The position numbers and the translations under genes were made by a program. Positions 3,389-24,500 of a stretch of 37,791 nucleotides of DNA are shown here, piece by piece. Source of the stretch: Synechococcus sp. AG-670-B23 (lineage in GTDB: Bacteria; Cyanobacteriota; Cyanobacteriia; PCC-6307; Cyanobiaceae); the NCBI GenBank assembly GCA_003209165.1, contig QCSL01000018.1, forward strand, positions 1 to 37,791. The letters are read 5' to 3'. Position 1 is the first letter of the stretch. The number at the start of each line of letters is the position of its first letter. The notes under the pieces are model-generated. The model ran no database searches. It had not been told where the DNA came from and was given only the letters and a program-made list of their open reading frames with translations.

Positions 3389-6092
3389 CCAACTGATCCA
3401 GCACTTGGCGAGCCCGTTGCACCACGGGCTTGGGAACGCCGGCCAGGCGCGCCGCTTCGATGCCGTAGCTGCGGCTGGCGCCGCCGGCTTGCACCTGATG
3501 GAGGAAGACCAGATCCTCCCCGGTTTCCTTTACCAGCACCTGGAAGTTGGCCACGTTGTCGCGTTCAGAGGCCAGGTTGTTGAGCTCGTGATAGTGGGTG
3601 GCGAACACCGTGCGGCTGCCCAGATCGCCCGCCAGGTGCTCGCTCACGGCCCAGGCGATCGAGAGGCCGTCGAAGGTGGCGGTGCCCCGCCCGATCTCAT
3701 CGAGCAGCACCAGGGAACGATTGCTGGCGTGGTGAAGGATGTTGGCGGTTTCGGCCATCTCCACCATGAAGGTGGACTGGCCGGCGGCCAGATCATCCAC
3801 GGCACCCACCCGGGTGAAGATCCGATCGGCGACGCTGACCGTGGCGGAGCGGGCCGGCACCCAGCTGCCGATCTGAGCCATCAACTGGATCAGACCGATC
3901 TGGCGTAAATAGCAGCTCTTGCCACTGGCGTTCGGGCCTGTGAGCACCACCAGATCGGTGCCCTCACCGAGCTGCACATCATTTGGGGTGAAGGAGGTTT
4001 CCACTAGCCGTTGCTCCACCACCGGATGGCGGCTGGCCTCCAGCTGCAGCCCCCGGCCGTCGGTGATGGTTGGTGCGCAGTAGCCACCGCTGGCGGCCAC
4101 ATCGGCCAGGCCGGTGAGGGCATCGAGGGAAGCAACGGCCCGGGCCGTCTGGCGGATTGGGGCGGCCATGTCTCCCACCTGCTCGCGCAGCTGGCAGAAC
4201 AGTTCGTACTCCCGCTGGCAGGCGCGAGCCCGTAGCTGGAAGATGCGGACCTCCCGCTCCTTGAGATCTGGGGTGATGAAGCGTTCTTCGTTAGCCAGGG
4301 TCTGGCGCCGGATCCAGTGGTCCGGCACGGCGGTGGCCTTGGCTTTGCTCACCGCCAGGAAATAGCCGAAGGTGCGGTGGTGCTGCAGCTTCAGGGTGCT
4401 GATGCCACTGCGTTGGCGCTCCTGCTGTTCCTGATGGCTGAGCCAGGCATCCTGATCGTCCAGCTGGTTGCGCAGCCCATCCAGCAGCGGGTCGACGCCG
4501 TCATGGATCAGATCGCCTTCTGAGAGGGAGAGCGGTGGGGCCTCCATCAGGCTGTGGCGAATGATCTGGGCGAGCTCAGCCAGGGCTGGATCGGGGCTGA
4601 GCAGGTCCTGCAACCATGCGGGCCCACTGGTGATCGCAGATTCCAGCCGTGCGGTGAGCTGGGGCAACCGTTCCAGGCCATCGGCGATGGCCACCAGATC
4701 ACGGGCGCCGGCGTGGCCCGCCCCGGCTCGGCCCGCCAGCCGTTCCAGGTCCCCCATCGGCCGCAGCAGCTGACGGATTCCCAGCCGCAGGCTGCGTTTA
4801 TCCACCAGGTTGCTCACCAGATCCTGGCGTTGCTGGATGGCCTGCTGGTCCATCAGTGGTGCTTCCAGCCAGCGGCGCAGGCAACGGCCGCCCATGGCGG
4901 TGAGGGTGCGATCGATCGCCCAGAGCAACGAACCCTGCAACTGGTTGTCGCGCTGGGTGGCGGTGAGTTCGAGGTTGCGGCGGGTCTGGGCATCCAGTAC
5001 CAGGGCATCGCCGCGGTGGACGATCGCTGGCACCTCCAGAGGAATGCGGCTGTCCTCCTCCAAGGGCTGGGTGTCCTGCAGGTAGCGCAGCAGGCCGCCG
5101 AGGGCCTGTAGGGCCAGGGGATGCTCCGGCAGGCCCAGGCCATCGAGGCTGCTGAGGCCGTAGTGCTGCTGCAGGGTGCGCTCCGCCTCCGCCGGGCTGA
5201 AGGGGGTGCTGGCCATCGGCGTCAGCCGCAGCCGTTCCGGGCACCAGGCTGGCCTTTCGGCGTCGTGGTCTGCGGCCCAGAGCAGTTCGGAGGCCTCCTG
5301 CTGGGCCAGCTGCTGGTGCAGGGCGCTGCTCTCTTCCTGCTGCATCACCTGCACCTCGCCAGTGCTCACATCGGCGCTGGCCAGGCCCCAGCGCAGCGGT
5401 TGTTTCCCCTGGGCCGGCTCCACCACAACCGCCGCCAGCCAGTTGTTGCGGCGGGCGCTGAGCATGCCCTCTTCCAACACTGTGCCGGGGGTCAGTACTC
5501 GGGTGATGTCCCGCTTGAGCAGGGCACCTTTGGTGGGGGTGGTTTCGAGTTGATCGCAAAGGGCCACGCTGTAGCCCTGCTTGATCAGTTCGGCGCAGTA
5601 GCGCTCAGCGGCATGGTGGGGGATGCCCGCCATCGGCACCCGCCCGATCGACTTGCCGCCCTCTTTGCCGGTGAGGGTGAGTTCCAGCACCCGGGAGAGT
5701 TCGATGGCGTCTTCGAAGAAGCATTCGAAGAAGTCGCCTAAGCGGTAGAGCAGTACCCGTTCGGGATGGGCTGCTTTCAGCTCCACGTAGTGGCGCAGCA
5801 TCGGTGTGAGCTGCGGCGGGTCCAGTTGGCTGTGGTGGGCCCAGGCCGGTTCGTCGCTGCTGAGTTCTGAATCGTTTGCAGCCGAGGATTCGCTGCTGCC
5901 CTCCCTTGCCGTGGCTTGGCGCGTTCGGGGCCGGGCGGCGGCATCGGCTCCGAGTTCGTCGTCGCTGAGGTCGTGGCTGGCGGTCTCAGCTTTACTGGTG
6001 GTTGTCGTCGCCGATGGGGCTTCCGGTTCAGGGGTGCCGAAAAGATTGCCCTGAAGGGCGTCGTCAGGGGATTGGGACGCGGATCGCGGCAT
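3381..6092 (-). CDS. mutS: DNA mismatch repair ATPase MutS
   Basis: MutS recognises mismatches and recruits downstream repair factors. The protein is about 903 aa from the ATG at 6092; a GTG three codons upstream (6101) is equally open. After a low-complexity acidic/Ser-rich leader of about 100 residues comes the N-terminal mismatch-binding domain with [12 protein letters not shown] (the Phe-x-Glu wedge, as FFE). The lever, clamp and ATPase domains follow, with Walker [18 protein letters not shown] and Walker B/signature [16 protein letters not shown], then the FATHYHEL switch. The C-terminus stops soon after the helix-turn-helix, without a long extension. The gene appears intact. Its start faces the AT-rich island directly, and a decayed copy of its middle section lies at about 36.8 kb. 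Confidence 0.97.
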
Positions 6093-6154
6093 CAACTGCA
6101 CTCTCGAGTTCCGATCGTACTCAGTTCGGGTGGGAAGCTTTGATAGAACAGTTC

Positions 6155-6247
6155 ATGAGCTTTAGAAACAATGATCAAAAGTCAACGGCTGCAGATGCTA
6201 TCAATACTATATTAACTGATATATTCAAAAGGCTTTTCGGAAGATGA
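6155..6247 (+). CDS. possible 30-residue microprotein or C-terminal relic at island edge
   Basis: The short frame begins MSFRNNDQKS and ends TDIFKRLFGR. It has a mixed amphipathic composition and its stop overlaps the next ATG (ATGA at 6244-6247). The frame stays open upstream into the mutS start region (GWEALIEQF), so it may instead be the C-terminal remnant of a gene cut by island insertion. No Shine-Dalgarno is visible. I do not recognise a family. Confidence 0.2.
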   Translation: MSFRNNDQKSTAADAINTILTDIFKRLFGR

Positions 6248-6327
6248 AATCAATTCTCAAGTCGATAAAAAAAGACCAATTTTTTTCCAATAATAATTCA
6301 CAGCCAGGTCTTACTCTATTCAAATAA
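6244..6327 (+). CDS. possible 27-residue Lys-rich microprotein
   Basis: The ATG at 6244 overlaps the stop of the preceding short frame. The product starts MKSILKSIKKDQ and ends PGLTLFK, and the stop is only 6 nt before the ATG of the 6334 gene. The spacing suggests translational coupling, but the length is too short to judge coding potential by eye. It may be a leader peptide or chance. Confidence 0.2.
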   Translation: MKSILKSIKKDQFFSNNNSQPGLTLFK

Positions 6328-6333
6328 TTTGCT

Positions 6334-7632
6334 ATGTCGATAGTTTACTTTCTACCTGTTGAAGTTGAACATAGGGGATTTTGTTCAAAACTATTGCTGT
6401 CTTTGAAATTACTTTCAAGTCGTCAAAGCCGACATGTGGTCATTGGTTTTGATAAGTATATCGGAGGAGTTCTAAGATCTATAAACTTTCCATCTATTTT
6501 ATTGGATAAAAGCTGTTCTGATTTGATGTACCAATCCCGCATCAAACATGTTTTGAGCAACAACGGTAAGGCTGCAGTATGCGATGAAGAAGGCGTAAAT
6601 AATATTACTAATAATTATGCGGGCTTAAAAGCAAGATTTGACCCTAATTGTGCCGCAAGCATTAGTAAATTTTTTGCATGGGGCAAATTAGATTGCGATT
6701 TAGCGACTGACGCAGGGATACCCCAAGAAAGAGTTGTGATGACAGGTAATCCGCGATGTGATCTGATGAATATCAATGGCTCAAAATTTTACAATAAAAA
6801 AGCATCTGCATTGAATACAATATTTGGTGACTTTATTCTCATTAATGATAACTTTGTAGTGGAGCGATTTGACCCAAATTATTCCCCGCCATTCAGATCA
6901 CATTTATCAAAACAAGAGAATATTGAGCTTAAGGCAAAAAGAGATAAAAAAATTAAAGAAAATAAACTCCAGCGCGAAAGATTGCTAGAACTTCTTATGG
7001 ATTTATCGCAAAAATATCCCGATATAAATTTTGTAATAAGGCCTCATCCTATGAGTGATCCAGCTTACATGCATGAAAAATTTTCAAAAGTAAGAAATGT
7101 GTTTGTTGTTTATAAAGATTCAATAGAACCATGGCTTTTTGCATGTCGCGCGATGGTGTCATCAGGTTGTACAACTGCTCTACAGGCTGCAATAGCAAAA
7201 AAGCCAATTTACCATTTTCCTTCGGTCGGGGATCATTTAGAGCCCTTAGCATCAAGCCTTGGAATTGAATTTAGTGTCAGCACTAATTTAAGAGATTACC
7301 CAGAATCTATTGTCGAATCTAACTACAAATCTGTCAGCGAATATATTAATATTCTAGATCAAGCTACTGATAATATTTCCCAGGAGTTGTTTCAACTTGA
7401 AAGCCAAAATATGCATATCAATTTAGATTTTAACATGTTTTCACTGCTTTCTAAAAAGGTTGTCGAACAACAACCGTCACCTGTTGAGCCAAAATGGTCG
7501 CGCTCTGGCTACAGTGTATCCAGTGTAAGAAAAATAGTTCAAAATATGGTTGAAAGCTTTTCTATCTCATGTGGTAAAATATCTATAATAAAAATCTCAC
7601 CTTATTTGTTTATTCTATCCAATGGCTATTGA
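6334..7632 (+). CDS. surface carbohydrate biosynthesis protein (TagF/GT-B-like transferase)
   Basis: The 432-residue protein resembles the 'surface carbohydrate biosynthesis' family related to CDP-glycerol glycerophosphotransferases (GT-B fold). Supporting segments are the N-terminal FLPVEVEHRGFCSKLLLSLKLL, a central FFAWGKLDCDLATDAGIPQERVVMTGNPRCDL, and the C-terminal FVIRPHPMSDP and MVSSGCTTALQAAIAKKPIYHF. The last two match the nucleotide-binding RPHP and SSGCTTALEA motifs of this group. No signal peptide or membrane span is evident. It starts the AT-rich block and overlaps the next gene by 11 nt. In this context it could transfer a CMP-activated phosphonate or sugar phosphate to a glycan; the substrate is inference. 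Confidence 0.65.
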   Translation: MSIVYFLPVEVEHRGFCSKLLLSLKLLSSRQSRHVVIGFDKYIGGVLRSINFPSILLDKSCSDLMYQSRIKHVLSNNGKAAVCDEEGVNNITNNYAGLKARFDPNCAASISKFFAWGKLDCDLATDAGIPQERVVMTGNPRCDLMNINGSKFYNKKASALNTIFGDFILINDNFVVERFDPNYSPPFRSHLSKQENIELKAKRDKKIKENKLQRERLLELLMDLSQKYPDINFVIRPHPMSDPAYMHEKFSKVRNVFVVYKDSIEPWLFACRAMVSSGCTTALQAAIAKKPIYHFPSVGDHLEPLASSLGIEFSVSTNLRDYPESIVESNYKSVSEYINILDQATDNISQELFQLESQNMHINLDFNMFSLLSKKVVEQQPSPVEPKWSRSGYSVSSVRKIVQNMVESFSISCGKISIIKISPYLFILSNGY

Positions 7633-9379
7633 TATTAAAATAAATCCTGGGAATCAAAATATTTCTTATATTGTTAAGAATAGCTATATAGAACCTTTCG
7701 GCAAATTATCCATATTGTTGGTTGGAAAATTTTTAGGTGCATTAAATGAAAATGGTACGATTGCTATAGAAGATCTACGTGAATTTAAAAAATTTATACT
7801 CTCTTCTTTGAAAAAAGCAGATATTTCTGACTTTTCTTTGAATTCTTGCGTGGGAAATTTTTCACTTATTTGTATTTTTCATGATCTGTCTAAGATTCTT
7901 GTTTCAACATCGACTTCTGGAATAAGTCCATATATTGCCAAATCTCACCAGGGACAAATAAAAATTAATTTCGATGAAAATTCTATTTTATCAACTTATA
8001 AGTCAAATTTATCTGTTGCAGCGAAAGAAGGGATTTTGGTGGGTCATCAATTGGTGACTCGTGCTCCCTTAACATTATTCGATGTTGAAAATATTTCTAG
8101 ATGTCCTTCTGGTCATAACACAATTATAAGTATGGATGCTTTTAATATTACTTTTCGTCCGTATCTTAACAAAAAAGATTTTATTTATTCTCCTCAAGTT
8201 CTAGAAGAGTCGTTAAAAAGCATTCTTAAATTGTATTTAGGCCGTTTTGGAAGTGATATAGGACTTGCCTTCTCCGGAGGATTAGATTCATCTTGTTTGG
8301 CAGCATTGTTGAAGAGCATGAATGCTTCAGTACCATTTTTTCATGTTGACTACAAGGGATCTAAATCTAAAAGATCAAGAGTTGCGCACTATATTGCCAC
8401 ATATCTTGGCTTTTCAACATTACATCTAGCTCGTCATGATTCACGTGTTGATGTAGCTGATATGACTAAAAATTGTAAGGCTGGATTTATTACTGTTCCT
8501 AATTCTATGTATTTAGGATCACCTATCAATAAATATGTTAAGAACAGCGTTCCTTCAAACCTAATTACAGGTCAAGGTGCCGATTCGATCTATGTAATTG
8601 ACAGCTTTGCGCCTGCAACAGAGCTTGTAGGCGATGCTCGTGTCCAATCAATTGTTGACAGTCGTCATTTACGTCTTGCACTCACTACTCCAAATATAGA
8701 AAAGCTTTTTTCGTTCAGCCACAATGATAGTTTACAATCACAAATTTACTCAAATCAATCATTTAGAGGTCTAGTGGATAATCAGTGCGTATCTTTCAAT
8801 GAGCATGTTGATTATAATAAATTCGATAATGTTAAGCCAACCTCTTTAAATACTTATCGTAGAACGTTTATCTCGAAAAAGATTTTTGATACTTTACTTC
8901 CAGAGTACTTTGAGTCAAATCCCCATTCGTCTATTTTGTCTTTATATAGATACATAAAGTGGATGCGCTCACTAATTAATGTACCCGTCCAATATGCTTC
9001 CGCACAACTAGCTCAGGGTGTTAATAGATTAACGCCCTTTCTCGAAGGACCGATAGTAAACATGTTCTTTCAATTAGAAATTTCATCTTTAGAATCTCTC
9101 AATCTTAAGGCAAAATTAGAACATATGTTTTTTGCCAATGCTGACATTTCACACCGCACCCTAGTGGAAAATGCTTTGTCTACTTTTACAGGAAGCGATG
9201 CAGATTTTGGCTATAAACTTAGCAAAGAGATGGATCCTGATAAATATAAAAGTTTGGCGAATCAAGTAATATCTGCACTACATCAGGAATCACAAGCTTC
9301 TACTTTTATGCATGATATTCTAAAAAATGTTACTTCAGCTGATCATCTGCTAAGGGCAGCCTCGTTAATAAATGATTGA
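7622..9379 (+). CDS. asparagine synthetase-like ATP-dependent ligase, no Cys nucleophile
   Basis: The C-terminal half is an asparagine-synthetase-type PP-loop ligase: LAFSGGLDSSCLAALL (SGGLDS at 218-223), FFHVDYKGSKSKRSR, and NLITGQGADSIYV near residue 320. The N-terminal half (1-180) has an Ntn-glutaminase-like outline but begins MAIDIK and lacks the Cys2 nucleophile, so glutamine hydrolysis is unlikely. Homologues with this loss (beta-lactam synthetase and lasso-peptide cyclase types) adenylate a carboxylate and couple it to an amine already present. The 585-residue length is close to AsnB. It overlaps the upstream gene by 11 nt, and a perfect hairpin follows at 9435. The likely role is amide formation in the phosphonate or surface-glycan pathway; the substrate is unknown. 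Confidence 0.7.
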   Translation: MAIDIKINPGNQNISYIVKNSYIEPFGKLSILLVGKFLGALNENGTIAIEDLREFKKFILSSLKKADISDFSLNSCVGNFSLICIFHDLSKILVSTSTSGISPYIAKSHQGQIKINFDENSILSTYKSNLSVAAKEGILVGHQLVTRAPLTLFDVENISRCPSGHNTIISMDAFNITFRPYLNKKDFIYSPQVLEESLKSILKLYLGRFGSDIGLAFSGGLDSSCLAALLKSMNASVPFFHVDYKGSKSKRSRVAHYIATYLGFSTLHLARHDSRVDVADMTKNCKAGFITVPNSMYLGSPINKYVKNSVPSNLITGQGADSIYVIDSFAPATELVGDARVQSIVDSRHLRLALTTPNIEKLFSFSHNDSLQSQIYSNQSFRGLVDNQCVSFNEHVDYNKFDNVKPTSLNTYRRTFISKKIFDTLLPEYFESNPHSSILSLYRYIKWMRSLINVPVQYASAQLAQGVNRLTPFLEGPIVNMFFQLEISSLESLNLKAKLEHMFFANADISHRTLVENALSTFTGSDADFGYKLSKEMDPDKYKSLANQVISALHQESQASTFMHDILKNVTSADHLLRAASLIND

Positions 9380-9434
9380 TGAAATCATTTTTGGCAACTA
9401 TGATGCATTTTGCAACAAAATATTCTATCTGTTG

Positions 9435-9462
9435 CACTAATGTTATAGTTTTAACATTAGTG
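9435..9462 (+). promoter_or_regulatory. 10-bp perfect hairpin before the ATP-grasp gene
   Basis: CACTAATGTT (9435-9444) and AACATTAGTG (9453-9462) are exact reverse complements around an 8-nt loop. The repeat lies in the only sizeable gap inside the plus-strand cassette, 12 nt before the GTG at 9475. It lacks a strong T-run, so it may be an operator, an attenuator or a translation-control hairpin as easily as a terminator. Confidence 0.5.
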
Positions 9463-9474
9463 TTTGAGAACTAA

Positions 9475-10581
9475 GTGCGTAAGATCCTCATTTCTTGCAT
9501 GGGTGGCTATGGAGCCGAACATTTAGCTAAAAGTATTGCTAATTCCTCCTTAGGCCCCAAAGTAGAAATCCATGGCACTCACGCCGATCCTTATCTTCTG
9601 GCCCGTTCATCGGCGCACCAGAACTTCCTTTCACCATGGTCTTTTGAACCAGATAAGTATATTCAAAAAATATCAAGTTATATAGAGTCCCATTCTATTG
9701 ATTTATTTATACCTAAAAGCGACAAAGAAGTTACAGTTTGCTCTCAAAATAGAGATTTAATACCATGCAAGATGTTTCTGCCTCAACCCTCAGATATATT
9801 GGCAGCACAAGATAAACTATCATTTTACAATATTCTCCACAAGGCTGGTGTGCATGTTGCTCAAACAGAGCAAGTAAAGTCTATTGACCAGCTAGATTCC
9901 ATTTTTAGAAAATTAGGTTCAGCTGAAAAATATTGGGTACGAGTTAAAAGCGCAGGCGAAGCTGGTGCGTTTGGCGCCACATGGGTAACGAAGCCTGAAC
10001 AAGCCAGGCAATGGATTCAATTATGGAATGAGCTCAATAATGTCGCTATAGACGAATTTACTGTTTCTGAATATCTGCCGGGTCGTTTATTCGAAGTGCT
10101 GACCTTGTTTAGTCAAGGCGAATTAAAGATTGCTAAAATATACGAGAATATTGAATATTACGGTGGTTCTGGAATTTCAGGAGTAGGGTCAACCCCAAAA
10201 GTCGGGAAAACTTGTTGTGACCATGCTTCAGTACAGGCAGTTAAGGAATCACTTAAAGCAATTGAAGCATTAGCTATTGAGACACAATCCAAACCTAATG
10301 GTATATATCATTTTTCTGTCAAAGAAAATATTAACCTTAGTCCGTGTATAACTGAGTGCAACATTGGACGCTTCCCATCAACATGCGGCTTTTTAAATCA
10401 AATTGGGCAATTTAATGTGGGTGAGTGGTTTGTTCGTTTTGCCTTGGATGATTTGCCTCCAGACATTCCTTCCAATTTGATCGATCTTGAACACAATTCA
10501 ATTTACATGATTCGGTCATTAGATCAAGAAATGGCTCTGCTTTCCGAAGACAAGATCAATGCTTTTTCGTTGAACAAATGA
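9475..10581 (+). CDS. ATP-grasp ligase (CarB/D-Ala-D-Ala ligase-like fold)
   Basis: The 368-residue protein starts at GTG 9475 (RKILISCMGGYGAEHLAKSI, a Rossmann-like preATP-grasp strand). ATP-grasp features follow: LAAQDKLSFYNILHKAGV (the D-K substrate segment), YWVRVKSAGEAGAFG (ATP-binding Lys and glycine-rich loop), FTVSEYLPGRLFEV, and ITECNIGRF (metal-binding Glu/Asn) near residue 297. The family activates a carboxylate as an acyl phosphate and couples it to an amine or thiol. Its stop overlaps the ALDH start (ATGA), which argues for translational coupling. It could ligate phosphonoacetate or an amino acid; this is inference from context. Confidence 0.75.
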   Translation: MRKILISCMGGYGAEHLAKSIANSSLGPKVEIHGTHADPYLLARSSAHQNFLSPWSFEPDKYIQKISSYIESHSIDLFIPKSDKEVTVCSQNRDLIPCKMFLPQPSDILAAQDKLSFYNILHKAGVHVAQTEQVKSIDQLDSIFRKLGSAEKYWVRVKSAGEAGAFGATWVTKPEQARQWIQLWNELNNVAIDEFTVSEYLPGRLFEVLTLFSQGELKIAKIYENIEYYGGSGISGVGSTPKVGKTCCDHASVQAVKESLKAIEALAIETQSKPNGIYHFSVKENINLSPCITECNIGRFPSTCGFLNQIGQFNVGEWFVRFALDDLPPDIPSNLIDLEHNSIYMIRSLDQEMALLSEDKINAFSLNK

Positions 10582-11963
10582 GTAAATTAAAGCAGGCTAT
10601 GAGTCAGACTGTTATTAATCCCTACAATGGCGAGATTGTTGGCACCTATCCGCTTTTGTCAGAGGATCAAGTGCAAGACTCAATACAACAACTTGCGAAA
10701 TATAAAAGAAATTTGTCTCTTCAGCAGATATCTGTATATTTAAACAATCTTGCCGATTCTATTTCAAAGAAAAAAGATCAGTATTCAAGATTGATTACCT
10801 CTGAGTCTGGCTTATGCCTTAAAGACACTTTGCATGAGGTGAGTCGTGCCTTAAAAGTTATTAGATTTTCGGCTGATTCGGCACTGAGGTTAGATGATTA
10901 CAGTGAGTCAGAAAATTTCAGTGTTGGAAATGCTCATTTTTCTGCAGATGTTATTAGGGAACCTGTTGGTATAGTTGCTTGTGTCACACCTTTCAATCAC
11001 CCTCTTAATCAAGTTGTCCATAAAGTGTGTCCTGCGTTAGCTTCAAACAATGCTTGCCTTCTCAAGCCCTCTGAGAAGACACCTATGACTGCGCTTATGT
11101 TTGTAGATGATGCTTTGAAGTGCGGCATCCCACCTGAGATGCTTCAAATCGTCACTGGTGATGCCGCTTTGGTTGGCAAACAAATTTGTCAATCTAATGA
11201 TATATCCATGATCAGCTTCACTGGTAGTACAAAAGTGGGTGAAATCTTTACCAGAAATGCCGGAATTAAAAAGCTCTCTCTTGAACTTGGCGGTAACGAT
11301 GCCTTATTGGTGATGTCTGATGCGAACATTGAAGAAGCTGTTGCCATTGCTGCCGAAGGTTCTTTCCGTAATTCAGGACAACGATGTAGTGCAGTAAAGA
11401 GAATATTTGTCCATTCAGATATCTATACTTTATTCTGTGATCATTTGGTACAAAAGACAAAGACTTACTCATGCGGTGATCCTATGAATAGCTCTACTGA
11501 TGTTGGTACTGTAATTTCTGAAGAAGATGCAATTGAAATTGAATCAAGAATTCAACAAGCAGTCAGCGCGGGTGCTACGTTACTTTGGGGAGGTAATCGC
11601 AAGGGTGCTTTACTAGAGCCAACTATAGTTATCGACGTAAATCCAGATTCTTTACTCGTCACTTCTGAAACTTTTGGACCAGTTGCGTCAATTATGAAAT
11701 TTGAGGATTATGAAGATGCGATTTCGATGATTAATAACACTATTTATGGATTGAATTCTGCCATTGTGACTAACGATGATTGTTTGATTCAAGATTTTAT
11801 CAGTCGCATTAATGTGGGTGGCATTAGGATCAATATGCCACCCGGCTTTAGAAGTGAAAACGTTCCCTTTGGAGGAAACAAGTCAAGTGGCTTTGGACGG
11901 AGTGGTGTCTGGCCGTCAATATTAGAGATGACCAATCAAAAGACTATAATTCGCAAGGTTTAG
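10578..11963 (+). CDS. NAD(P)-dependent aldehyde dehydrogenase, candidate phosphonoacetaldehyde dehydrogenase
   Basis: This is a full-length ALDH superfamily enzyme (461 aa). Catalytic features are visible: CVTPFNHPLNQ with the oxyanion Asn140, LLKPSEKTP with the cofactor-binding Lys163, FTGSTKVGE, LELGGND with Glu236, and NSGQRCSAVKR with the nucleophile Cys270. The ETFGPVASI segment near the C-terminus is also canonical. The FNHPLNQVVHK stretch resembles the phosphonoacetaldehyde/glyceraldehyde-3-phosphate (non-phosphorylating) branch. Sitting three genes before phosphonopyruvate decarboxylase, it most simply oxidises phosphonoacetaldehyde to phosphonoacetate. It overlaps the ATP-grasp gene by 4 nt and precedes the methyltransferase by 12 nt. 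Enzyme class is sure; substrate is inference. Confidence 0.88.
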   Translation: MSKLKQAMSQTVINPYNGEIVGTYPLLSEDQVQDSIQQLAKYKRNLSLQQISVYLNNLADSISKKKDQYSRLITSESGLCLKDTLHEVSRALKVIRFSADSALRLDDYSESENFSVGNAHFSADVIREPVGIVACVTPFNHPLNQVVHKVCPALASNNACLLKPSEKTPMTALMFVDDALKCGIPPEMLQIVTGDAALVGKQICQSNDISMISFTGSTKVGEIFTRNAGIKKLSLELGGNDALLVMSDANIEEAVAIAAEGSFRNSGQRCSAVKRIFVHSDIYTLFCDHLVQKTKTYSCGDPMNSSTDVGTVISEEDAIEIESRIQQAVSAGATLLWGGNRKGALLEPTIVIDVNPDSLLVTSETFGPVASIMKFEDYEDAISMINNTIYGLNSAIVTNDDCLIQDFISRINVGGIRINMPPGFRSENVPFGGNKSSGFGRSGVWPSILEMTNQKTIIRKV

Positions 11964-11975
11964 CAGTGTTATTGT

Positions 11976-12800
11976 ATGGACAAAGCTGTACTGTATTCGC
12001 AAGAAGATGCAGATGCGCTTACAGCTTCTGAGAAAGCTGAAGATTGGAGAGATTTAGCTGATCAGATGAAAGCTGATCTTATTTTGGAACATCTACCTCA
12101 AATATCTAGCCTTTTGGACATCGGCTGTGCATGGGGGCAAGTATTAAGGAAGCTAGTTGGTCACGTACCACGTTTGGCTGGAGTAGACGAGTCAGCAGAT
12201 CGCATCAAAACTCTTCTTGATAATGATCTTGGTATTGAAGTTTATAAATCTCATTCTTCATTGTTGCCGGTAGATAACTCTTCATTTGATGCAGTTTTAA
12301 CCTCCCATATTGTTCATGAAATTAAGCTTTTTGGCTCATCACAAGACTTTTCTTTAATGCTTAAGGAGATAAAACGTGTTCTTACCCCCTCCGGAAAATA
12401 TATTTTGATTGATCATAGAGATCCTGGTGATGGAACCGTATCGATAAGATTGACTGATAGCAATCGTCAAAAGCTTTTATATTTTGCTGAAAAATTTAAG
12501 TATAGAAAAGTTGTGGCCGATATATCTGGTGATGTCGCAACATTATCCACTAGGGATTGTCATGACTTTGTGACTAAAATATGGTCACTTGGATCCGGTG
12601 CTGAAGACTTAGAGATGAATGAGACCCATACGGTGATGAAAAAGGATGAGATTAAGCATGATTTGTCTGTGAATAATTTCGTTCTAATTAATTGGATCCC
12701 CTTCAACAATATACAGCCCTTAATGGATCATTACGGGATAGAACTTGTCTCTGGTGATGCATGGGATCGCCAGTTCATGTGCCTTAGCCAGCCAAAATGA
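11976..12800 (+). CDS. SAM-dependent methyltransferase (class I)
   Basis: The 274-residue protein has a clear class I SAM-binding motif SLLDIGCAWGQVLRKL at about residue 45, an acidic motif II region (LAGVDESADRI), SFDAVLTSHIVHEI as motif III/IV and IKRVLTPSGKYILIDHRD as the post-motif strand. The C-terminal part carries no recognisable extra domain. It ends in a 4-nt ATGA overlap with the PEP mutase gene, so it belongs to the phosphonate transcription unit. Methylation of a carboxylate, hydroxyl or amine on the phosphonate product is a reasonable guess; the acceptor cannot be read from sequence. Confidence 0.8.
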   Translation: MDKAVLYSQEDADALTASEKAEDWRDLADQMKADLILEHLPQISSLLDIGCAWGQVLRKLVGHVPRLAGVDESADRIKTLLDNDLGIEVYKSHSSLLPVDNSSFDAVLTSHIVHEIKLFGSSQDFSLMLKEIKRVLTPSGKYILIDHRDPGDGTVSIRLTDSNRQKLLYFAEKFKYRKVVADISGDVATLSTRDCHDFVTKIWSLGSGAEDLEMNETHTVMKKDEIKHDLSVNNFVLINWIPFNNIQPLMDHYGIELVSGDAWDRQFMCLSQPK

Positions 12801-14416
12801 AGAACTCCACCAAGTTAAGAGAGCTTCTATCGAGTAGCTCTCCAGAAATGATTATGGAGTCCCACAGTGGACTTTCTGCAAAAATAGCCCAAGAAACTGG
12901 GTTCAAAGCTGTATGGGCTTCCAGTTTATCAATCTCTGCCTCATATGGTCTAAGAGATTGCAACGAAGCCAGTTGGTCTCATATTTTAGAAACTGTTGAG
13001 TTTATGACTGACTCTATTGATATACCTCTTTTGTTAGATGCAGATACTGGTTATGGAAATTTTAACAACGTTAGGTATCTTGTTAAACGTCTAGAAAATA
13101 GAAGGGTTGGTGGGATGTGTATTGAAGATAAGTTATTTCCGAAAACCAACTCTTTTATTAATGGTGAGCGTCAATCACTTGCTGATGTAGATGAGTTTTG
13201 CGGAAAAATCAAAGCAGCTAAGGATACACAAGTAGATCCTGATTTCAATGTAATTGCGCGTATCGAGGCTTTGATTGCTGGATATGGAATGGATGAAGCT
13301 CTGACAAGGGCTCATAAGTATGTTGACGCTGGTGCTGATGCACTTTTAGTGCACTCAAAGTCTAATACCGTCACTCAAATTGCTGAATTCATGGGTTTGT
13401 GGGATCAGTCATGTCCTATTGTTGTTGTTCCTACAAAATATTATGACACGCCTTTTCATGTTTTTGAAGATTTGGGCATATCGGTTGTAATTTGGGCTAA
13501 TCAAATGATGCGTGCTTCTATTACAAGCATGCAAGATGTTACTAGAAGGATATATGAATCAAGATCCATCTCTGAGGTTGAGCCTACTATTGTTCCAGTC
13601 TCAGAGGTATTTAGACTCCAAAATACACAAGAACTACTTGAAGCAGAGTTAAATTATCTCCAACAGATTGAATCTGTTGGAGGCATAATTTTAGCTGCAT
13701 CTAAGGGTGATGATTTTGAAGGGTTGACCAAAGATAAACCAAAGGCAATGGTATCAGTTGATGGTAAGCCAATACTTAGCCACATCCAAGATACATTTAA
13801 TCAGTGCGGTGTAAAGGACATTACAGTCTTAGCAGGTTACGCTCACGAATCTGTCAAACTACCTAATATTGAAAAAATAATAGTTGATGATTGGCAAATA
13901 AATGGCAATGCTTGGTCTCTATATCTTGCTCTTCATAAACTTAACGGCCCTTGTGTAATTAGTTTTGGTGATATCTTGTTTGATAAGTCCCTTTTAGATC
14001 ATTTATTAGACAATCCCGATGATATTGTTTTGTCTGTTGATTATACCTGGACCAATGGCCCATCCGATCGTAATGTTTTACCCCTTGTTCAATGCGATGC
14101 ACCAGCATCTCAGATGTTTGGTGGCCGTACCACTTCATCTTTGACCAGTATTGGCTACAAACTAGGTGAATCCAATATTTCAGGTGAATGGATTGGTTTG
14201 TTAAAAGTTAACACTCAGGGAGCCAAGATAATGTCTGATCACCTCAAGTATCTCGCAGAAACTGATATTAATTCATTAAGGTCCATGGATATGGTTTCAT
14301 TTTTGCATTCTTTAAGTTTAACCACTGCCGATCTTTCCGTCAGTTATTTCCCTGGTAAATGGCTTGATGTTGATAATTCTAATGATCTCACTCGCTACAA
14401 TTCAATGAAGGATTGA
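12797..14416 (+). CDS. pepM: phosphoenolpyruvate mutase fused to nucleotidyltransferase
   Basis: PEP mutase rearranges PEP to phosphonopyruvate, the entry step of nearly all C-P bond biosynthesis. Residues 1-290 form the isocitrate-lyase-like barrel: LLLDADTGYGN (Asp81, Asp83 for Mg) and the diagnostic EDKLFPKTNS at 110-119, which matches the EDK-x5-NS signature separating true PEP mutases from other ICL family members. Residues 295-539 are a sugar-phosphate-type nucleotidyltransferase (IILAASKGDDFEGL then TKDKPKAMVSV, later SFGDILFDKSLL and GKWLDVDNSNDL). The usual Arg of the GxGxR loop is replaced (KGDDF), so activity of this domain is less sure. Fused domains of this kind are known to make CMP-activated phosphonates. 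The gene overlaps both neighbours by 4 nt. Confidence 0.95.
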   Translation: MKNSTKLRELLSSSSPEMIMESHSGLSAKIAQETGFKAVWASSLSISASYGLRDCNEASWSHILETVEFMTDSIDIPLLLDADTGYGNFNNVRYLVKRLENRRVGGMCIEDKLFPKTNSFINGERQSLADVDEFCGKIKAAKDTQVDPDFNVIARIEALIAGYGMDEALTRAHKYVDAGADALLVHSKSNTVTQIAEFMGLWDQSCPIVVVPTKYYDTPFHVFEDLGISVVIWANQMMRASITSMQDVTRRIYESRSISEVEPTIVPVSEVFRLQNTQELLEAELNYLQQIESVGGIILAASKGDDFEGLTKDKPKAMVSVDGKPILSHIQDTFNQCGVKDITVLAGYAHESVKLPNIEKIIVDDWQINGNAWSLYLALHKLNGPCVISFGDILFDKSLLDHLLDNPDDIVLSVDYTWTNGPSDRNVLPLVQCDAPASQMFGGRTTSSLTSIGYKLGESNISGEWIGLLKVNTQGAKIMSDHLKYLAETDINSLRSMDMVSFLHSLSLTTADLSVSYFPGKWLDVDNSNDLTRYNSMKD

Positions 14417-14418
14417 AA

Positions 14419-15522
14419 ATGATTCCAGCGGATTTCCTTGATCTTCTCTCCTCTCATAACTTTGGTCCTTTTGCCGGAGTTCCTTGTTCATTGCTCGGTG
14501 GGTTAATTAACTCGATTGAATGTAGTGATGAGCAAAGTTATTATACTGCTTCTTCTGAGGGGGAATCTATGGGGATAGCTGCTGGCTTTAGTTTATCTGG
14601 CAAAACTCCCGTTGTTCTTATGCAGAATGATGGACTTGGTAATGTTATAAATCCACTTTCTTCTCTTCAGATTCCTTTCAAGTTGCCCACACTTCTAGTT
14701 ATTACATGGAGAGGGGAGCCACATGGAAAGCCTGATGCTATCCAACATCAATTAATGGGTGAAAAACTGCTTGAGCTTTTAAAGCTTTTTGATATTCCAT
14801 TTTCTATTCTTGATCAAGATCAAGACATCAAATCTACAGATGCTCTTTTAGAAGAGGCCTCCGCTTATATTTCAGAAGCAAGTACGCCGTATGCACTAAT
14901 AGTAAAACGTGGTTTTTTCGATAAAATTCCTCCTGTTCAGTCTAATTGTGACGAAAAATATTTTAAGAGAGAGCTGTATATAAAGTCATTGTTGACCAAT
15001 ATTTCCTTCGATTCTCCCGTATTAGGAACTACAGGATTTACTGGTAGGGAGCTAACGGAACTGGCGGGAGATCATCCTCATTTTTATATGCCAGGTTCAA
15101 TGGGTTGCCTACCATCCATTGGTCTGGGTCTTGCCAAAGCCAATCCAACTAAACGTTTTTTTGTTCTTGACGGTGATGGCGCTCTGTTAATGAAGCTTGG
15201 TTCATTGTCAACCTTGGGTCATTACAAACCTACTAATCTCGTACACATAGTATTTGATAATCTTTGTTATGAATCTACGGGTTGTCAAGCAACTGTTGCT
15301 AACACAGTAGATTTTGAATCACTTGCACGCGCTTGTGGATATCGACATTGTGTATCTGTCGATAACTTGACTGCCTTTATTGACTATACAAAAAACATTA
15401 CCACTAATATCGATGGCCCTTATTTTATTCATATTAGAATTAGTACTGGCACGATGTCAAATCTTAGCAGGCCTTCAAGTACACCCGTAGAGCATAAAAA
15501 TGAATTTATTCGAAATCTCTAA
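14419..15522 (+). CDS. ppd: phosphonopyruvate decarboxylase
   Basis: The TPP-dependent enzyme decarboxylates phosphonopyruvate to phosphonoacetaldehyde, pulling the unfavourable PEP mutase equilibrium forward. The 367-residue, two-domain length is typical for Ppd. The N-terminal PYR domain has FAGVPCSLLGG and SSEGESMGIAAG with the cofactor-activating Glu. The Mg/TPP motif is LDGDGALLMKLGSLSTLG ... HIVFDN in the C-terminal domain, and GSMGCLPSIGLGLA precedes it. I take the ATG at 14419, 2 nt after the pepM stop; a TTG at 14413 overlapping that stop is an alternative. It is the last gene of the plus-strand unit. The pairing with PEP mutase makes the assignment firm. Confidence 0.94.
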   Translation: MIPADFLDLLSSHNFGPFAGVPCSLLGGLINSIECSDEQSYYTASSEGESMGIAAGFSLSGKTPVVLMQNDGLGNVINPLSSLQIPFKLPTLLVITWRGEPHGKPDAIQHQLMGEKLLELLKLFDIPFSILDQDQDIKSTDALLEEASAYISEASTPYALIVKRGFFDKIPPVQSNCDEKYFKRELYIKSLLTNISFDSPVLGTTGFTGRELTELAGDHPHFYMPGSMGCLPSIGLGLAKANPTKRFFVLDGDGALLMKLGSLSTLGHYKPTNLVHIVFDNLCYESTGCQATVANTVDFESLARACGYRHCVSVDNLTAFIDYTKNITTNIDGPYFIHIRISTGTMSNLSRPSSTPVEHKNEFIRNL

Positions 15523-15781
15523 ATAGTTGGCAGTTTGGCCTCTATTCAATAGATAATTGAGGATTCATTAACAATATTTGCTTATTTTTTATCATTTAGA
15601 TTCGCATTGATTTGCTTCTCCAATGTATGCTTCTCTCTTTGCTTCCAAGCTTAATTCGGCCGACAATAATGTTCTGAGTTCCTTTCGTTGTTTCAGTTAT
15701 TTTCGGAGACCTTGCTGCTCAGTGCCGATATTCCATGGCTAGTTTAATCTCCCATGGCATTAAATCCTCGTCTTCATAGCT
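15523..15781. other. convergent intergenic region, no clear gene or terminator
   Basis: This AT-rich gap separates ppd from the convergent oxygenase gene. It contains two CCATGGC copies (about 15734 and 15753) and a 39-codon plus-strand frame at 15623-15742 beginning MYASLFASKL, which could be the head of a lost gene. I see no convincing hairpin with T-run. Confidence 0.4.
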
Positions 15782-16699
15782 TTATTGATCCAGTAGTGAA
15801 AATAGTTTTTCAATCTCAAAGTTCGTATAATTGTTCCTTTTTTGCACAGCTGCTCTTATGTCTTCACCTGAGGTCAAGCTTAATCGTTTATCTTTTCCAT
15901 TTGGAATTGGTAAGTACAGGCATTGAATAATTCTTCGATGAGCATTTGGTGGGAGTGGGGTTCCTCGATGTATTCCTCTGGTATCCTCAGCAAAGCCTTT
16001 GCCTGCACTTCCAATCACGTCAATAATGTCTTTGGCAATTGGCCATATTGCATCATCTTCGATCTTATAACGGCCTCTTAAACTTCTCTTTTTTGTTAGT
16101 ACTTTTTTTAGGTGTAGTGAGTAAGGATCTAAAGCTTTCAATCGTTTATCAAATGCTGACTGATTATGTGTGTTGGATATAAATTGATGGTGACCCATGC
16201 CAAGTATCACATCATCAAGGTAATAAAAGACTTTTACAAACCTATGGCCATGGTGATCCATATGCCAGTACATTTCATTTGTTCTTATCGGATGATCACC
16301 ACCTTTGTTTTCCCAGCTCGCTATGAATTGGATACTAGGGAATATACCTAAGTATTCTTGTATGGGCCTAATGATCTTTTTATCAGAGAAAATATGTATC
16401 AAAATTGGATCATCTATTAATATTTCTGGCAGGATAGATCTCTTATTTTCACTAATTATGGGTTCTTGGAAGTATTTATTTTTTAAGTGCATACATATTT
16501 TAGAGCTAATATTTGGAATCTTGCATATTCCTAGTTTCTTAAGATCTAGTCCTCTTGCTATATCCAGTTCACTCATGAGACTGGCATCAGGCTTTAGACT
16601 TGTATGATATTGATGTAGTACTTTATTGTATATTAATTCTCTGGTGTCGTAATTAGAGTAGTCGTATGTCAAAAAATGATAGTACTGTTGTTTATTCAT
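15782..16699 (-). CDS. Fe(II)/2-oxoglutarate-dependent oxygenase (PhyH-like)
   Basis: The 305-residue protein shows a plausible double-stranded beta-helix iron triad: EMYWHMDHHG (His146, Asp148) and, about 100 residues later, TRGIHRGTPLPPNAHRR with the distal His244 and an Arg (255/256) placed to bind 2-oxoglutarate. This spacing fits the phytanoyl-CoA dioxygenase superfamily. It is the second gene of a minus-strand pair, 8 nt after a methyltransferase, and converges on ppd. In phosphonate clusters such enzymes hydroxylate or cleave the carbon chain; in polysaccharide clusters they also occur. It is not a recognisable methylphosphonate synthase, which is a longer cupin-type protein. Enzyme class is moderately sure; the substrate is unknown. 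Confidence 0.65.
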   Translation of the reverse strand: MNKQQYYHFLTYDYSNYDTRELIYNKVLHQYHTSLKPDASLMSELDIARGLDLKKLGICKIPNISSKICMHLKNKYFQEPIISENKRSILPEILIDDPILIHIFSDKKIIRPIQEYLGIFPSIQFIASWENKGGDHPIRTNEMYWHMDHHGHRFVKVFYYLDDVILGMGHHQFISNTHNQSAFDKRLKALDPYSLHLKKVLTKKRSLRGRYKIEDDAIWPIAKDIIDVIGSAGKGFAEDTRGIHRGTPLPPNAHRRIIQCLYLPIPNGKDKRLSLTSGEDIRAAVQKRNNYTNFEIEKLFSLLDQ

Positions 16700-16707
16700 T
16701 GAATCTA

Positions 16708-17583
16708 TTATTTTGTAATTATTCCCGCTTTCATGAAGGGTTGATTCTTTATTTCTATATATATATCTTTGGTTTCGTTTTCCTTGTCTACCAGATTTTG
16801 CGCCAATTTATAGTATTCCTCAAATGCAAGAACCTTCTTAGCACCTGTACGCGGTCTGCTACTTCTGTCGGTTTTTTGTTTGTATCCTTTTGATTCATGT
16901 GTTGTCGATACTGTGAAAATGAGAGAGCCATCATTTTTTAATACTCTTATCGCTTCTTTGAAGGCTATTTCTGGAGCCTCGCTGTAAGCAATGCAGTGAG
17001 TTAATATGCATGCATCGAATTTTTCTTCAGGGAAGGAGAGTTCATGCATATCACCTAGTTGTATTAATGGACTGTATGAATGCAAATCTATTGCAGTAAT
17101 ATTATGAGGATTGATGCCGAAGTTGCTCATGTATAGTATCTCAGCTTCTGTCCGTGCTCCTATATATAATATTCGAGCATTGCCTGGGTTGCGTTTTACG
17201 GAATTTGATTGCAACAAAAGCTTTCCAAAGCAGTTTGCTTTCGTTTGATTAATATAGTAAGTGTTTATTCCAAATTCGTCTTGATGTGCACCTCTAGACT
17301 TTGCATAGTCACTACCTACTGTGGATATAAATGATAAATTTGTTTCTATTGTTGTTTCTGTGGTTGCGTCGTGCGTTTTTTTTATGTATCTCATTTTTCC
17401 TAGTACGTGTACCCAGTACCAATACCTTATGGTGCAAATGCTATTTAGTTGATCTATAGATAGTTTTTTATTGATAAGTTCATTGATGAGTAGGTCGTCG
17501 TTTAATATATTGATTTCGCAGTTTGCTTTAGCGTATAAATTTTGTATGTGTTTGTAAAGTAAATTGTGCGAATCTTGATTCAC
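16708..17583 (-). CDS. SAM-dependent methyltransferase-like protein
   Basis: The 291-residue protein starts at GTG 17583. A methyltransferase core is recognisable from residue 137: ARILYIGARTEAEILYM (motif I, with IGAR replacing the usual xGxGxG), ITAIDLHSYSPLIQLGDMHELSFPEEKFDACILTH (the type-11 pattern of GDMxxLPFxDxxFD), and AIRVLKNDGSLIFTVSTTHES. The N-terminal 130 residues are not recognised and may bind substrate. It is the first gene of the minus-strand pair with the oxygenase. The start is uncertain because a separate 52-codon frame overlaps its first 56 nt (see 17528-17852). Very AT-rich, like the rest of the island. Confidence 0.6.
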   Translation of the reverse strand: MNQDSHNLLYKHIQNLYAKANCEINILNDDLLINELINKKLSIDQLNSICTIRYWYWVHVLGKMRYIKKTHDATTETTIETNLSFISTVGSDYAKSRGAHQDEFGINTYYINQTKANCFGKLLLQSNSVKRNPGNARILYIGARTEAEILYMSNFGINPHNITAIDLHSYSPLIQLGDMHELSFPEEKFDACILTHCIAYSEAPEIAFKEAIRVLKNDGSLIFTVSTTHESKGYKQKTDRSSRPRTGAKKVLAFEEYYKLAQNLVDKENETKDIYIEIKNQPFMKAGIITK

Positions 17584-17852
17584 TTTCTTGATGATGCTCT
17601 TGTATGTATCTTAGCATGTATGGTTTGATGTTGAAGCGTAGCAGGTATGCCTGTGCCTCATTGTAGGTTCTATCGTATCTCCGCATTGATCTTGCTTAAA
17701 ATCTTTTCAGTATTTTTCCGTTTTCTTTGTTTCTGTAAGATCTTAACGTGTTTCTTTGGTAAGCACATATGATTCGGTTCGCCACCTACTTTGTTTTGCA
17801 TATGTAGTATTTTTATGATTTCAATAATCTTTTCGTTTACATATTGGATGTT
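17528..17852 (-). pseudogene. degenerate coding remnant with frameshift
   Basis: On the minus strand an open frame from 17852 to 17670 (61 codons, containing VNEKIIEIIKIL and KVGGEPNHMCLPKKHV) ends at a TAG. A +1 frame then continues from an ATG at 17686 to 17528 (MRRYDRTYNEAQAYLL...). Joined, they read like one protein with a single frameshift. I do not recognise the family. It could also be two unrelated short frames. Further upstream to about 17940 are more short open pieces broken by stops. Confidence 0.3.
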
Positions 17853-18105
17853 TTATTTAATTGAACCTGTTCAAAGTGTGAGATCATTTTTCATTTGTTT
17901 AACTTCCGACTTAATGCTTATGAATGACCCAAGCTTTAATTAAATGTCTTGGTTGAAGACGTTATTTATTGTTTGATTGTTGACATAGTTGTGTTAAGCA
18001 AAATATCACATATGATCTGCCTGGTTTATTCATTGGTTCTCTGAGGCATTCACTCTGATTAAAGTTGAACTAGACCAGCCCAATTTATTCCTTCTTTTTT
18101 TAATC
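17584..18105. other. AT-rich spacer between phosphonate island and pseudaminic acid operon
   Basis: About 520 nt with no intact gene of normal size. It holds the frameshifted remnant at 17528-17852, short broken frames up to about 18000, and presumably the promoter of the methyltransferase/oxygenase pair. Composition changes sharply at its right end, where the higher-GC pseI begins. I see no terminator for pseI. Confidence 0.5.
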
Positions 18106-19155: not shown

Positions 19156-19892
19156 GAGGGGATGTTTTGGCTAACAGATTGGTCTGGTGACATTGGTACT
19201 ATCCTCACATCGGCATGGAGGCCATCGCTGCGCTGGGTCACGCGACGAAACTCCAGCCGCATGCCGCGAGTTTCTAGAAACGCATGTGGGTACCCTTCGG
19301 CGTCGAGCATACGGATCTGGTCGTACCAGGAACTCAGGTCGCCTTTCGAGCAGCTAGCCAGATTGCTTTGGTCTGGAGTACGGCGGCTGAACAGCACCGA
19401 TTCTCCCCGCTGGGGAGTGGCAGCGGGCTCCTCACGCACGATTTTTTCAATCATTTGCTCAATTACACCATCAGCCCTGAGAAAGATTTCTTCTGCGCTG
19501 CCATGAAGGCTCAAAGGCTGCTTGGCATAGATGTCACCTGTATCCAGGCCGGCGTCGCAGCGCAGGGCTGAGAGCATCGTGGTGCTGTGGCCTCGTTGGA
19601 TCAGGTTCTGTAGTGGACTACCGCCTCGGCCATAGGGCAAGTCGGTCATATGGAAGATCACAGTTGGCCAAGAGCCCCAGATCGATTCGGGGATTAGATG
19701 GTTCCAATGAGGCAAGAAGATCCACTCGGGATTTATCGCTGCTACAGCCTCCGAGGTGAGCTTGGCGGGTTCGGTAATGCTCTCAACGGGGCGATTCAGT
19801 TGTCGGCTGAGACGATCAGCCAATGTGCTGTTCCAACGGCGGCTCGAGAGCAACAGCAGGGGGCGTTGGTGGAGAGGTGAAACAGGGCCCAT
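19152..19892 (-). CDS. formyltransferase-like protein of the pseudaminic acid operon
   Basis: The central part resembles the formyl-THF-dependent formyltransferase fold: TVIFHMTDLPYGRGGSPLQNLI (His81; compare the NxHxSLLPxxRG motif) and AGLDTGDIYAKQPLSL with the catalytic-type Asp at about 117. The usual Asn two residues before the His is replaced by Ile, so catalysis needs confirming. The family includes sugar N-formyltransferases and Fmt. At 246 aa it is shorter than Fmt and has a small C-terminal domain. It sits between pseI (4-nt overlap) and pseG; N-formylation of an amino group on the nonulosonic acid or its precursor is a fair inference. A 160-nt gap with small broken frames follows towards pseG. 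Confidence 0.65.
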   Translation of the reverse strand: MGPVSPLHQRPLLLLSSRRWNSTLADRLSRQLNRPVESITEPAKLTSEAVAAINPEWIFLPHWNHLIPESIWGSWPTVIFHMTDLPYGRGGSPLQNLIQRGHSTTMLSALRCDAGLDTGDIYAKQPLSLHGSAEEIFLRADGVIEQMIEKIVREEPAATPQRGESVLFSRRTPDQSNLASCSKGDLSSWYDQIRMLDAEGYPHAFLETRGMRLEFRRVTQRSDGLHADVRIVPMSPDQSVSQNIPS

Positions 19893-22378: not shown

Positions 22379-22394
22379 CACTCAACGCAACCTT

Positions 22395-24428: not shown

Positions 24429-24500
24429 CGGGCTTGTAATTTGCGTTGGAAGCAGGTATTGCCTTTACTCTCGAGGAATATCTGGGTTGAGGAAGGGCTG

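Follow-up and report, generated by a model that had tools for sequence, protein, structure and literature searches.

The window analysed here, the whole stretch of 37,791 nucleotides from contig QCSL01000018.1 of Synechococcus sp. AG-670-B23, carries at positions 6334–17583 a phosphonate cassette which, judging from its genes, is real and intact-looking. Five core genes, encoding an ATP-grasp ligase, a dehydrogenase, a methyltransferase, a phosphoenolpyruvate (PEP) mutase (PepM) fused to a nucleotidyltransferase and a phosphonopyruvate decarboxylase (Ppd), would make and tailor phosphonoacetate that ends on a surface glycan; the probability of this reading as a whole is estimated at about 0.5. 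That the cassette runs through phosphonoacetate is, taken by itself, quite probable. The assignment to phosphonoacetate is based on PepM and Ppd scores over the family cut-offs, on the PhnY-type pocket of the dehydrogenase, on the missing gene of the 2-aminoethylphosphonate (AEP) branch in the operon and on the lack of a match to phosphonoacetate hydrolase (PhnA). The assignment to the surface draws on where the cassette lies, with mutS and uvrB on either side of a site at which glycan genes are swapped and a pseudaminic acid cluster next to it. That this DNA encodes phosphonate biosynthesis in the company of surface-glycan genes had been proposed in an earlier reading made without database searches (the sequence-only reading), and this proposal is well supported.

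Gene order and proposed pathway

Nine open reading frames were confirmed at positions 6334–17583, between mutS and the pseudaminic-acid-type cluster. Seven of them form a plus-strand run (6334–15522) in the order TagF-like gene, AsnB-like gene, ATP-grasp gene, aldehyde dehydrogenase gene, methyltransferase gene, PepM fusion and Ppd. The run is a tightly overlapping unit, as had been claimed: overlaps of 4 bp join the ATP-grasp and dehydrogenase genes, the methyltransferase and PepM genes and the PepM and Ppd genes, and one of 11 bp joins the TagF-like and AsnB-like genes, with gaps of 12 bp between the dehydrogenase and methyltransferase genes and 95 bp between the AsnB-like and ATP-grasp genes. 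A minus-strand pair, a PhyH-type 2-oxoglutarate (2OG) oxygenase and a second methyltransferase, faces this run. The sequence-only reading placed the pair correctly on the other strand; the sequence itself does not tie the pair to the pathway.

The first three steps of the proposed pathway follow from family membership and motifs: PepM would convert PEP to phosphonopyruvate, Ppd would convert this to phosphonoacetaldehyde, and the PhnY-like dehydrogenase would oxidize the latter to phosphonoacetate. In the subsequent, more conjectural steps the ATP-grasp ligase, the AsnB-like ligase or both may couple an amine or alcohol to the carboxyl group; the fused nucleotidyltransferase, for which we infer activation with cytidine monophosphate (CMP), may load the phosphonate or its conjugate onto CMP; the TagF-like protein may pass the CMP-activated phosphonate to a surface glycan; and the methyltransferase, perhaps with the 2OG oxygenase, may decorate the product. 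The resulting surface phosphonoglycan would carry a group derived from phosphonoacetyl, not AEP, 2-hydroxyethylphosphonate (HEP) or methylphosphonate.

PEP mutase fusion and phosphonopyruvate decarboxylase

The PEP mutase, the enzyme that makes C–P bonds, is encoded at 12797–14416 (plus strand). It exceeds the TIGR02320 cut-off (373.9 bits against 319.55) and contains EDKLFPKTNS, which corresponds to the EDKX5NS motif, at residue 110. The chain is formed by a PF13714 domain (residues 7–252) and a MobA-like nucleoside triphosphate (NTP) transferase domain (PF12804, residues 296–411), and its residues 291–500 match the LicC-type structure 1jyk; we describe the protein as a PEP mutase fused to a LicC/PntC-type nucleotidyltransferase. 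In the alignment the PK lysine of the fused domain is conserved, as are its FGD and WLDVD positions. The first loop of this domain reads AASKG, and the two free enzymes aligned have AAG.G with the arginine kept. The adjoining Ppd (14413–15522, plus strand) exceeds the TIGR03297 cut-off (350.3 bits against 312.5), and its single chain matches both the alpha and the beta subunits of 9iz3. Both the mutase with its motif and the decarboxylase had been recognised in the sequence-only reading, which missed the fusion. In the PepM tree the position of the window's protein among stand-alone and AEP-type mutases is unsettled (an open fork), and therefore no donor is claimed.

The PhnY-like dehydrogenase and the choice of branch

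The protein encoded at 10578–11963 (plus strand) is an aldehyde dehydrogenase (PF00171, 441 bits), in agreement with the sequence-only reading, and is assigned here as a putative PhnY-like phosphonoacetaldehyde dehydrogenase. Its best NCBIfam match is TIGR03250 (454.1 bits). The best of its 42 PDB sequence matches, which had escaped the sequence-only reading together with the pocket residues described below, is 4i3t (E 4e-96), which we take to be PhnY, phosphonoacetaldehyde dehydrogenase. The phosphonate pocket of PhnY is presumably formed by R108, H159, R290 and R447 (numbers that differ by three from those of the chain). All four positions are matched in the window's protein by R90, H141, R269 and R425, and C270 aligns with the catalytic cysteine. 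The alignments with the best 5 of the 42 PDB matches were compared, and among these five solved relatives all four pocket residues are kept only in 4i3t. Each of the four next-best relatives has two of the four: R90 is present in all of them and R425 in the first two only, the R269 position is occupied by V, N, R and R, and the H141 position by F, F, Y and Y.

Across the cyanobacterial loci examined, the window's included, gene content points to three branches after phosphonoacetaldehyde. End-to-end relatives of the PepM fusion were found in four genomes besides the window's in a sample of 386 phylum genomes, and in all four an AEP transaminase over its cut-off lies near the fusion. Among all fused comparators, which include neighbourhoods drawn from three of the 15 plasmid records with an end-to-end fusion, the transaminase was found in 6 of 7 (L043 was not examined). 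The PepM cut-off is passed by 4 of 151 sampled family genomes, one of them the window's (at E 0.001 the number of matching genomes is 12 of 151), and the three other family PepM proteins are 32–34% identical to the window's PepM domain. The branch gene was scanned in two of these three loci, L040 and L042 (L041 was not scanned), where Ppd is followed by a protein of iron alcohol dehydrogenase type (TIGR03405, 144 and 273 bits, cut-off 423.7). A locus elsewhere in the phylum (L083) is similar to these two by inspection only.

Neither of these alternatives was found beside the window's Ppd. The operon contains no AEP transaminase, and the best PhnW match in the genome, which is 87.7% complete, reaches 184 of 360.8 bits; no iron alcohol dehydrogenase was matched among the nine proteins of 6334–17583 (Pfam, NCBIfam). 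PhnA (phosphonoacetate hydrolase, TIGR02335) was not found in the genome at this completeness. The phylum search returned 29 loci beyond the window's. Neighbourhoods were inspected in six of them (L050–L053, identical with L079–L082; L057, identical with L083; L058, identical with L040), and the window's dehydrogenase has no match (E 1e-6) in the 3–4 kb around PepM of the other 23.

Putative ligases, transferase and tailoring enzymes

The TagF-like surface carbohydrate biosynthesis protein (6334–7632, plus strand), a candidate phosphonate or glycan transferase, matches TIGR04396 over residues 6–299 (184.7 bits, cut-off 125), has an RPHP motif at 236 and no Pfam match; proteins of TIGR04396 are surface-carbohydrate enzymes by family name. 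The AsnB-like protein (7622–9379, plus strand) matches PF00733 (32 bits, cut-off 21) and has the synthetase PP-loop SGGLDSS at residue 218. The position of both genes before the core agrees with the sequence-only reading. To this it can be added that the N-terminus of the AsnB-like protein, MAIDIKINPG, has no Cys2 glutaminase nucleophile, so that this putative amidoligase would need another amine source.

The ATP-grasp protein (9475–10581, plus strand), a putative carboxylate ligase, alone gives no Pfam match and only sub-cut-off NCBIfam matches (best 36 bits), and it resembles no solved structure (the best match, at E 0.069, is unrelated). Its class, as named in the sequence-only reading, is borne out through relatives: four of them (21–25% identical) match ATP-grasp Pfam families over cut-off, and a five-row profile of the protein matches 2pn1 (E 2.6e-20), carbamoyl-phosphate synthetase and amino-acid ligases. 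The second family match (L048) and L086 were left out of the alignments for the profiles. The 2OG oxygenase (15782–16699, minus strand), a possible tailoring enzyme, is likewise supported through relatives: searched alone, it matches neither Pfam nor NCBIfam, and its best solved match (E 0.16) is unrelated. Residues H146, D148, H244 and R255 of its HxD...H...R pattern are invariant in the alignment with five relatives from four genomes, one of which matches PF05721 under its cut-off, and the resulting profile matches EctD (E 3.4e-8) and MysH-type proteins. Single-sequence structure predictions of both proteins were poor (mean pLDDT 39.7 for the ATP-grasp protein and 35.1 for the 2OG protein) and were replaced by the profiles of relatives; Foldseek with the ATP-grasp model gave no match at E <= 0.001. 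It has been proposed that TauD/TfdA-type dioxygenases hydroxylate phosphonoacetate (PMC12723261), and such a hydroxylation would suit the window's 2OG frame, although the frame shows no tie to the operon.

Both methyltransferases are predicted to depend on S-adenosylmethionine. The one inside the core (11976–12800, plus strand) matches PF08241 with 45.1 bits; the other, a possible tailoring enzyme next to the oxygenase gene (16708–17583, minus strand), matches the same family with 42.4 bits over residues 156–223.

Genomic setting

The cassette lies between mutS (3381–6101, minus strand), identified by Pfam, as the left edge of the insertion spot and uvrB (28022–30295, plus strand), identified likewise, as its right edge. 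The mutS gene has 92–94% identity to its counterparts in the six other genomes of the genus that match best. Stretches of 20 kb beside mutS were compared in ten same-genus genomes (L118–L127). The uvrB gene starts within 1.5 kb of mutS in five of the ten (L118, L119, L120, L121 and L123); in L122 a part of the same pseudaminic acid cluster stands between the two genes and in L124 a sulfatase set, and in L125, L126 (short match) and L127 the 20 kb gave no complete uvrB. The spacing and contents of these stretches indicate that the cassette is an insert at a site where glycan genes are exchanged. A search of the ten stretches with the nine cassette-region proteins gave a single match, that of the TagF-like protein in L122 (E 1e-6).

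The pseudaminic-acid-type cluster (18106–27616, minus strand) provides the glycan context. It was assigned by Pfam and by TIGR03586, TIGR03590, TIGR03588 and TIGR03589 over cut-off, and comprises PseI, a formyltransferase, PseG with a weak PseH match, PIG-L, a cytidylyltransferase–aminotransferase fusion, an aldo/keto reductase, PseC and PseB. PseG shares one frame with a GNAT domain (20055–21680), in which the PseH match (TIGR03585) is under cut-off. In the fusion (22395–24428) CTP_transf_3 is joined to a class III (glutamate-1-semialdehyde-type) aminotransferase; a 71% relative occurs in L126. After uvrB there are five further genes (30500–36306: sulfatase, unknown, NTP transferase, APH-like, unknown), whose relatives at 49–67% identity lie between mutS and uvrB in L124.

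The G+C content is 0.368 at 6102–18105, 0.531 in the pseudaminic acid cluster and 0.645 and 0.563 in the flanks. The "AT-rich island" of the sequence-only reading is thus correct as a description. Glycan islands of the same genus are equally low (0.34–0.39 in four stretches measured), so the low G+C alone is no proof of a foreign donor. Inside the cassette the five core genes from ATP-grasp to Ppd have a G+C of 0.383–0.396, against 0.353 in the TagF-like and 0.339 in the AsnB-like gene, a difference in keeping with a core of five genes to which a glycan pair was joined; the convergent pair has 0.35. The description "picocyanobacterial" also fits: the source genome is a 2.27 Mb draft in 100 contigs, and the family includes near-complete genomes of 1.7 Mb. 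Promoter and terminator scans stayed at chance level (37 against 42.2 and 9 against 7.5, respectively), a tRNA was the sole Rfam match at the gathering threshold, and no clear integration site emerged from a repeat search. Six proteins scanned against PADLOC and PHROGs returned only methyltransferase and QueC-type or unnamed matches.

Occurrence in other genomes

The sequence-only reading had suggested searching PepM neighbourhoods for the same gene set; no second copy was found in the family and phylum genome samples, in plasmids, in phages or in viral contigs, the last searched with three window proteins. In plasmids there are AEP-type PepM fusions; the ATP-grasp protein has a single weak and partial match there and the methyltransferase four, and nine phage records have partial PepM-superfamily matches. 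The ATP-grasp protein has no close relative among 399 other genomes of the family, where two weak matches were found, or among 291 others of the phylum, where there were three. The AsnB-like protein has two weak matches (E about 9e-5) and the first methyltransferase nine (27–32% identity at E 1e-6) in 260 other genomes of the family, and the 2OG oxygenase is matched at 28–37% in five of 200 sampled genomes. These genome samples were drawn evenly and overlap with one another. At E 1e-8, 26 PepM-domain loci in genome contigs, several of them short, gave no match to the TagF-like, AsnB-like, ATP-grasp, dehydrogenase or first methyltransferase proteins, and Ppd was matched only in L025 and L026. 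A report of a phosphonoacetate cassette in cyanobacteria was not seen among the open-access titles and abstract beginnings listed.

Seven of the ten PepM loci inspected, from several phyla, have a D-2-hydroxyacid dehydrogenase gene directly before a stand-alone PepM (L002 8995–9960, L003 8983–9939, L005 8975–9943, L009 9015–10001, L018 6067–6990, L022 8994–9968 and L024 8979–9944); the other three were not scanned. The PepM proteins of these seven loci are 60–65% identical to the window's, and no Ppd match was found there (E 1e-8). The pairing suggests a branch from phosphonopyruvate to phosphonolactate. In L081 a 139-residue frame (9324–9743) with repeats like SEAEVLSSE lies between the AEP-type PepM fusion and Ppd.

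Comparison with known systems and alternative explanations

The window shares with the Pnt clusters (PMC6697681; L044, L045, L079–L082) the end-to-end PepM–nucleotidyltransferase fusion (44–50% identity) and an adjacent or close Ppd. It differs from these clusters by the PhnY-like dehydrogenase in place of the AEP transaminase, by the additional ATP-grasp protein, AsnB-like ligase and methyltransferase, and by the lack of a separate free nucleotidyltransferase in the operon. According to PMC6697681, ~33% of predicted PepM proteins are fused to PF12804, a fusion linked there to surface tailoring, and two PntC proteins, one stand-alone and one fused to AEP transaminase, make CMP-AEP. The picocyanobacterial clusters of the HEP/methylphosphonate type (Prochlorococcus SB, PMC8931226; L040, L042) have PepM and Ppd in the same bacterial family, and that of Prochlorococcus SB likewise lies among surface-glycan genes; its phosphonates were recovered in the protein fraction, which the authors read as phosphonylated glycoproteins (PMC8931226). 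The PepM proteins of L040 and L042 are 32–33% identical to the window's and have an N-terminal cytidylyltransferase-like stretch by inspection; their Ppd is followed by the sub-cut-off iron alcohol dehydrogenase-type protein, where the window has the PhnY-like dehydrogenase. What is new is the whole gene combination; phosphonoacetate clusters and PepM–nucleotidyltransferase fusions were each known before. The claim that no described pathway is present thus stands for the complete gene set and does not hold for the opening steps to phosphonoacetate, proposed for actinomycetes (PMC12723261), or for the fusion (PMC6697681).

Several observations weigh against the proposed surface phosphonoacetate. 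The dehydrogenase stays under the TIGR03250 equivalog cut-off (454.1 of 635.65 bits) and scores nearly as well as lactaldehyde dehydrogenase (445.9 bits). The fused nucleotidyltransferase lacks the arginine of GxG(T/S)R, whose alanine mutant in Treponema denticola PntC has <10% activity (PMC6697681). All seven fused comparators deviate in this loop too (AAS.G), which suggests either that the subfamily works otherwise or that the domain is not a cytidylyltransferase. A 34% relative of the TagF-like protein occurs in a same-genus glycan island (L122) without a match to other cassette proteins. The best-scoring family relative of the ATP-grasp protein (L047) adjoins a neuB-type gene, which means that such ligases also belong to nonulosonic acid loci. 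It is possible that both proteins serve ordinary glycan chemistry. The substrates of the ATP-grasp, AsnB-like and methyltransferase proteins, which have no characterised close relative, are guesses, and with no second copy of the cassette found, conservation of gene order could not be used.

The closest parallel to the opening steps is found in actinomycete clusters, where PepM, Ppd and an aldehyde dehydrogenase are proposed to give phosphonoacetate (PMC12723261). The clusters described there (O-phosphonoacetic acid serine; K. fiedleri) share with the window PepM, Ppd and a dehydrogenase with the PhnY pocket, a combination that marks them, and the K. fiedleri cluster also has ATP-grasp and TauD/TfdA-type dioxygenase genes. 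The actinomycete decarboxylase is split over two genes, whereas the window's is one chain, and the window combines a glycan locus with a fused nucleotidyltransferase, which the main text of PMC12723261 does not mention. It is conceivable that the window's cassette makes a small secreted ester or amide of phosphonoacetate, as in actinomycetes, and that its glycan neighbours reflect the insertion spot only. A small conjugate would suit the ATP-grasp and AsnB-like ligases and the methyltransferases, and the core is set apart by its G+C from the TagF-like and AsnB-like genes. However, no transporter is named in the Pfam matches of the 28 window proteins scanned, and resistance-type matches are limited to a sub-cut-off APH (33503–35269) and the GNAT domain in the PseG frame. 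The tie of PepM–PF12804 fusions to surface tailoring, with the TagF-like gene directly upstream, also points away from secretion. We regard a secreted product as possible but rather unlikely.

It is less likely still that the dehydrogenase serves sugar or amino-acid chemistry of the glycan and that the cassette makes some other phosphonate through a transaminase or reductase encoded elsewhere in the genome. The low TIGR03250 score and the close lactaldehyde dehydrogenase score would fit this, and 87.7% completeness leaves room for a missing gene. On the other hand, H141 is common to PhnY only and absent in the four other solved relatives aligned, the dehydrogenase gene lies in the operon core, and the score of the genome's best AEP transaminase match is low. 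That the genes are an imported or misassembled, non-functional remnant is very improbable: the assembly is an incomplete draft of 100 contigs and no second copy was found, but all frames are open with motifs kept, and on the same contig the insert is flanked by the genus's own mutS and uvrB, at the spot of the relatives' glycan inserts. A consuming route of the PhnWAY type, in which the dehydrogenase feeds phosphonoacetate hydrolase, shares the dehydrogenase family and the pocket residues with the window and could draw on the alkaline-phosphatase-superfamily protein at 30500–31708 (PF00884, PF01663), but it was rejected as the least likely of all, since PhnA has no match in the genome (87.7% complete), the partner genes are biosynthetic with a C–P-forming mutase, and the 30500 protein matches arylsulfatases (under cut-offs) and has no PhnA among its 10 NCBIfam matches. 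In L124, which gave no match to any cassette protein, a 67% relative of the 30500 protein lies between mutS and uvrB.

Within the preferred reading, a surface glycan carrying a phosphonoacetate-derived group, one speculative variant deserves mention. Phosphonoacetate might be a two-ended surface linker, with its carboxyl ligated to an amine and its CMP-activated phosphonate end passed to the glycan by the TagF-like protein. Candidates for the amine are an amino acid or an amino sugar (e.g. the neighbouring pseudaminic acid, through one of its amino groups). We consider this variant improbable; if true, it would place a non-hydrolysable C–P bridge or cap in a cyanobacterial surface polymer. No C–P linker of this kind appeared among the open-access titles and abstract beginnings listed.

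Biological implications

Picocyanobacterial phosphonates feed the aquatic methane and phosphorus cycles (PMC8931226). The cyanobacterial branches examined otherwise appear from their genes to lead to AEP or, probably, HEP, and a phosphonoacetate branch, if true, would be a third class of cyanobacterial phosphonate product. The metagenomes of Flathead Lake are reported to contain no methylphosphonate cycling genes from Cyanobium (PMC10734540), and a different picocyanobacterial phosphonate would therefore bear on the sources of phosphonates in lakes and coastal waters. If the proposed pathway is correct, CMP activation in surface tailoring would be extended from an amine to a phosphonate acid, and phosphonates would be tied to a gene spot at which surface variation arises in the genus, probably driven by phages and grazers. 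The cyanobacterium may in that case decorate its surface with an unusual phosphonate.

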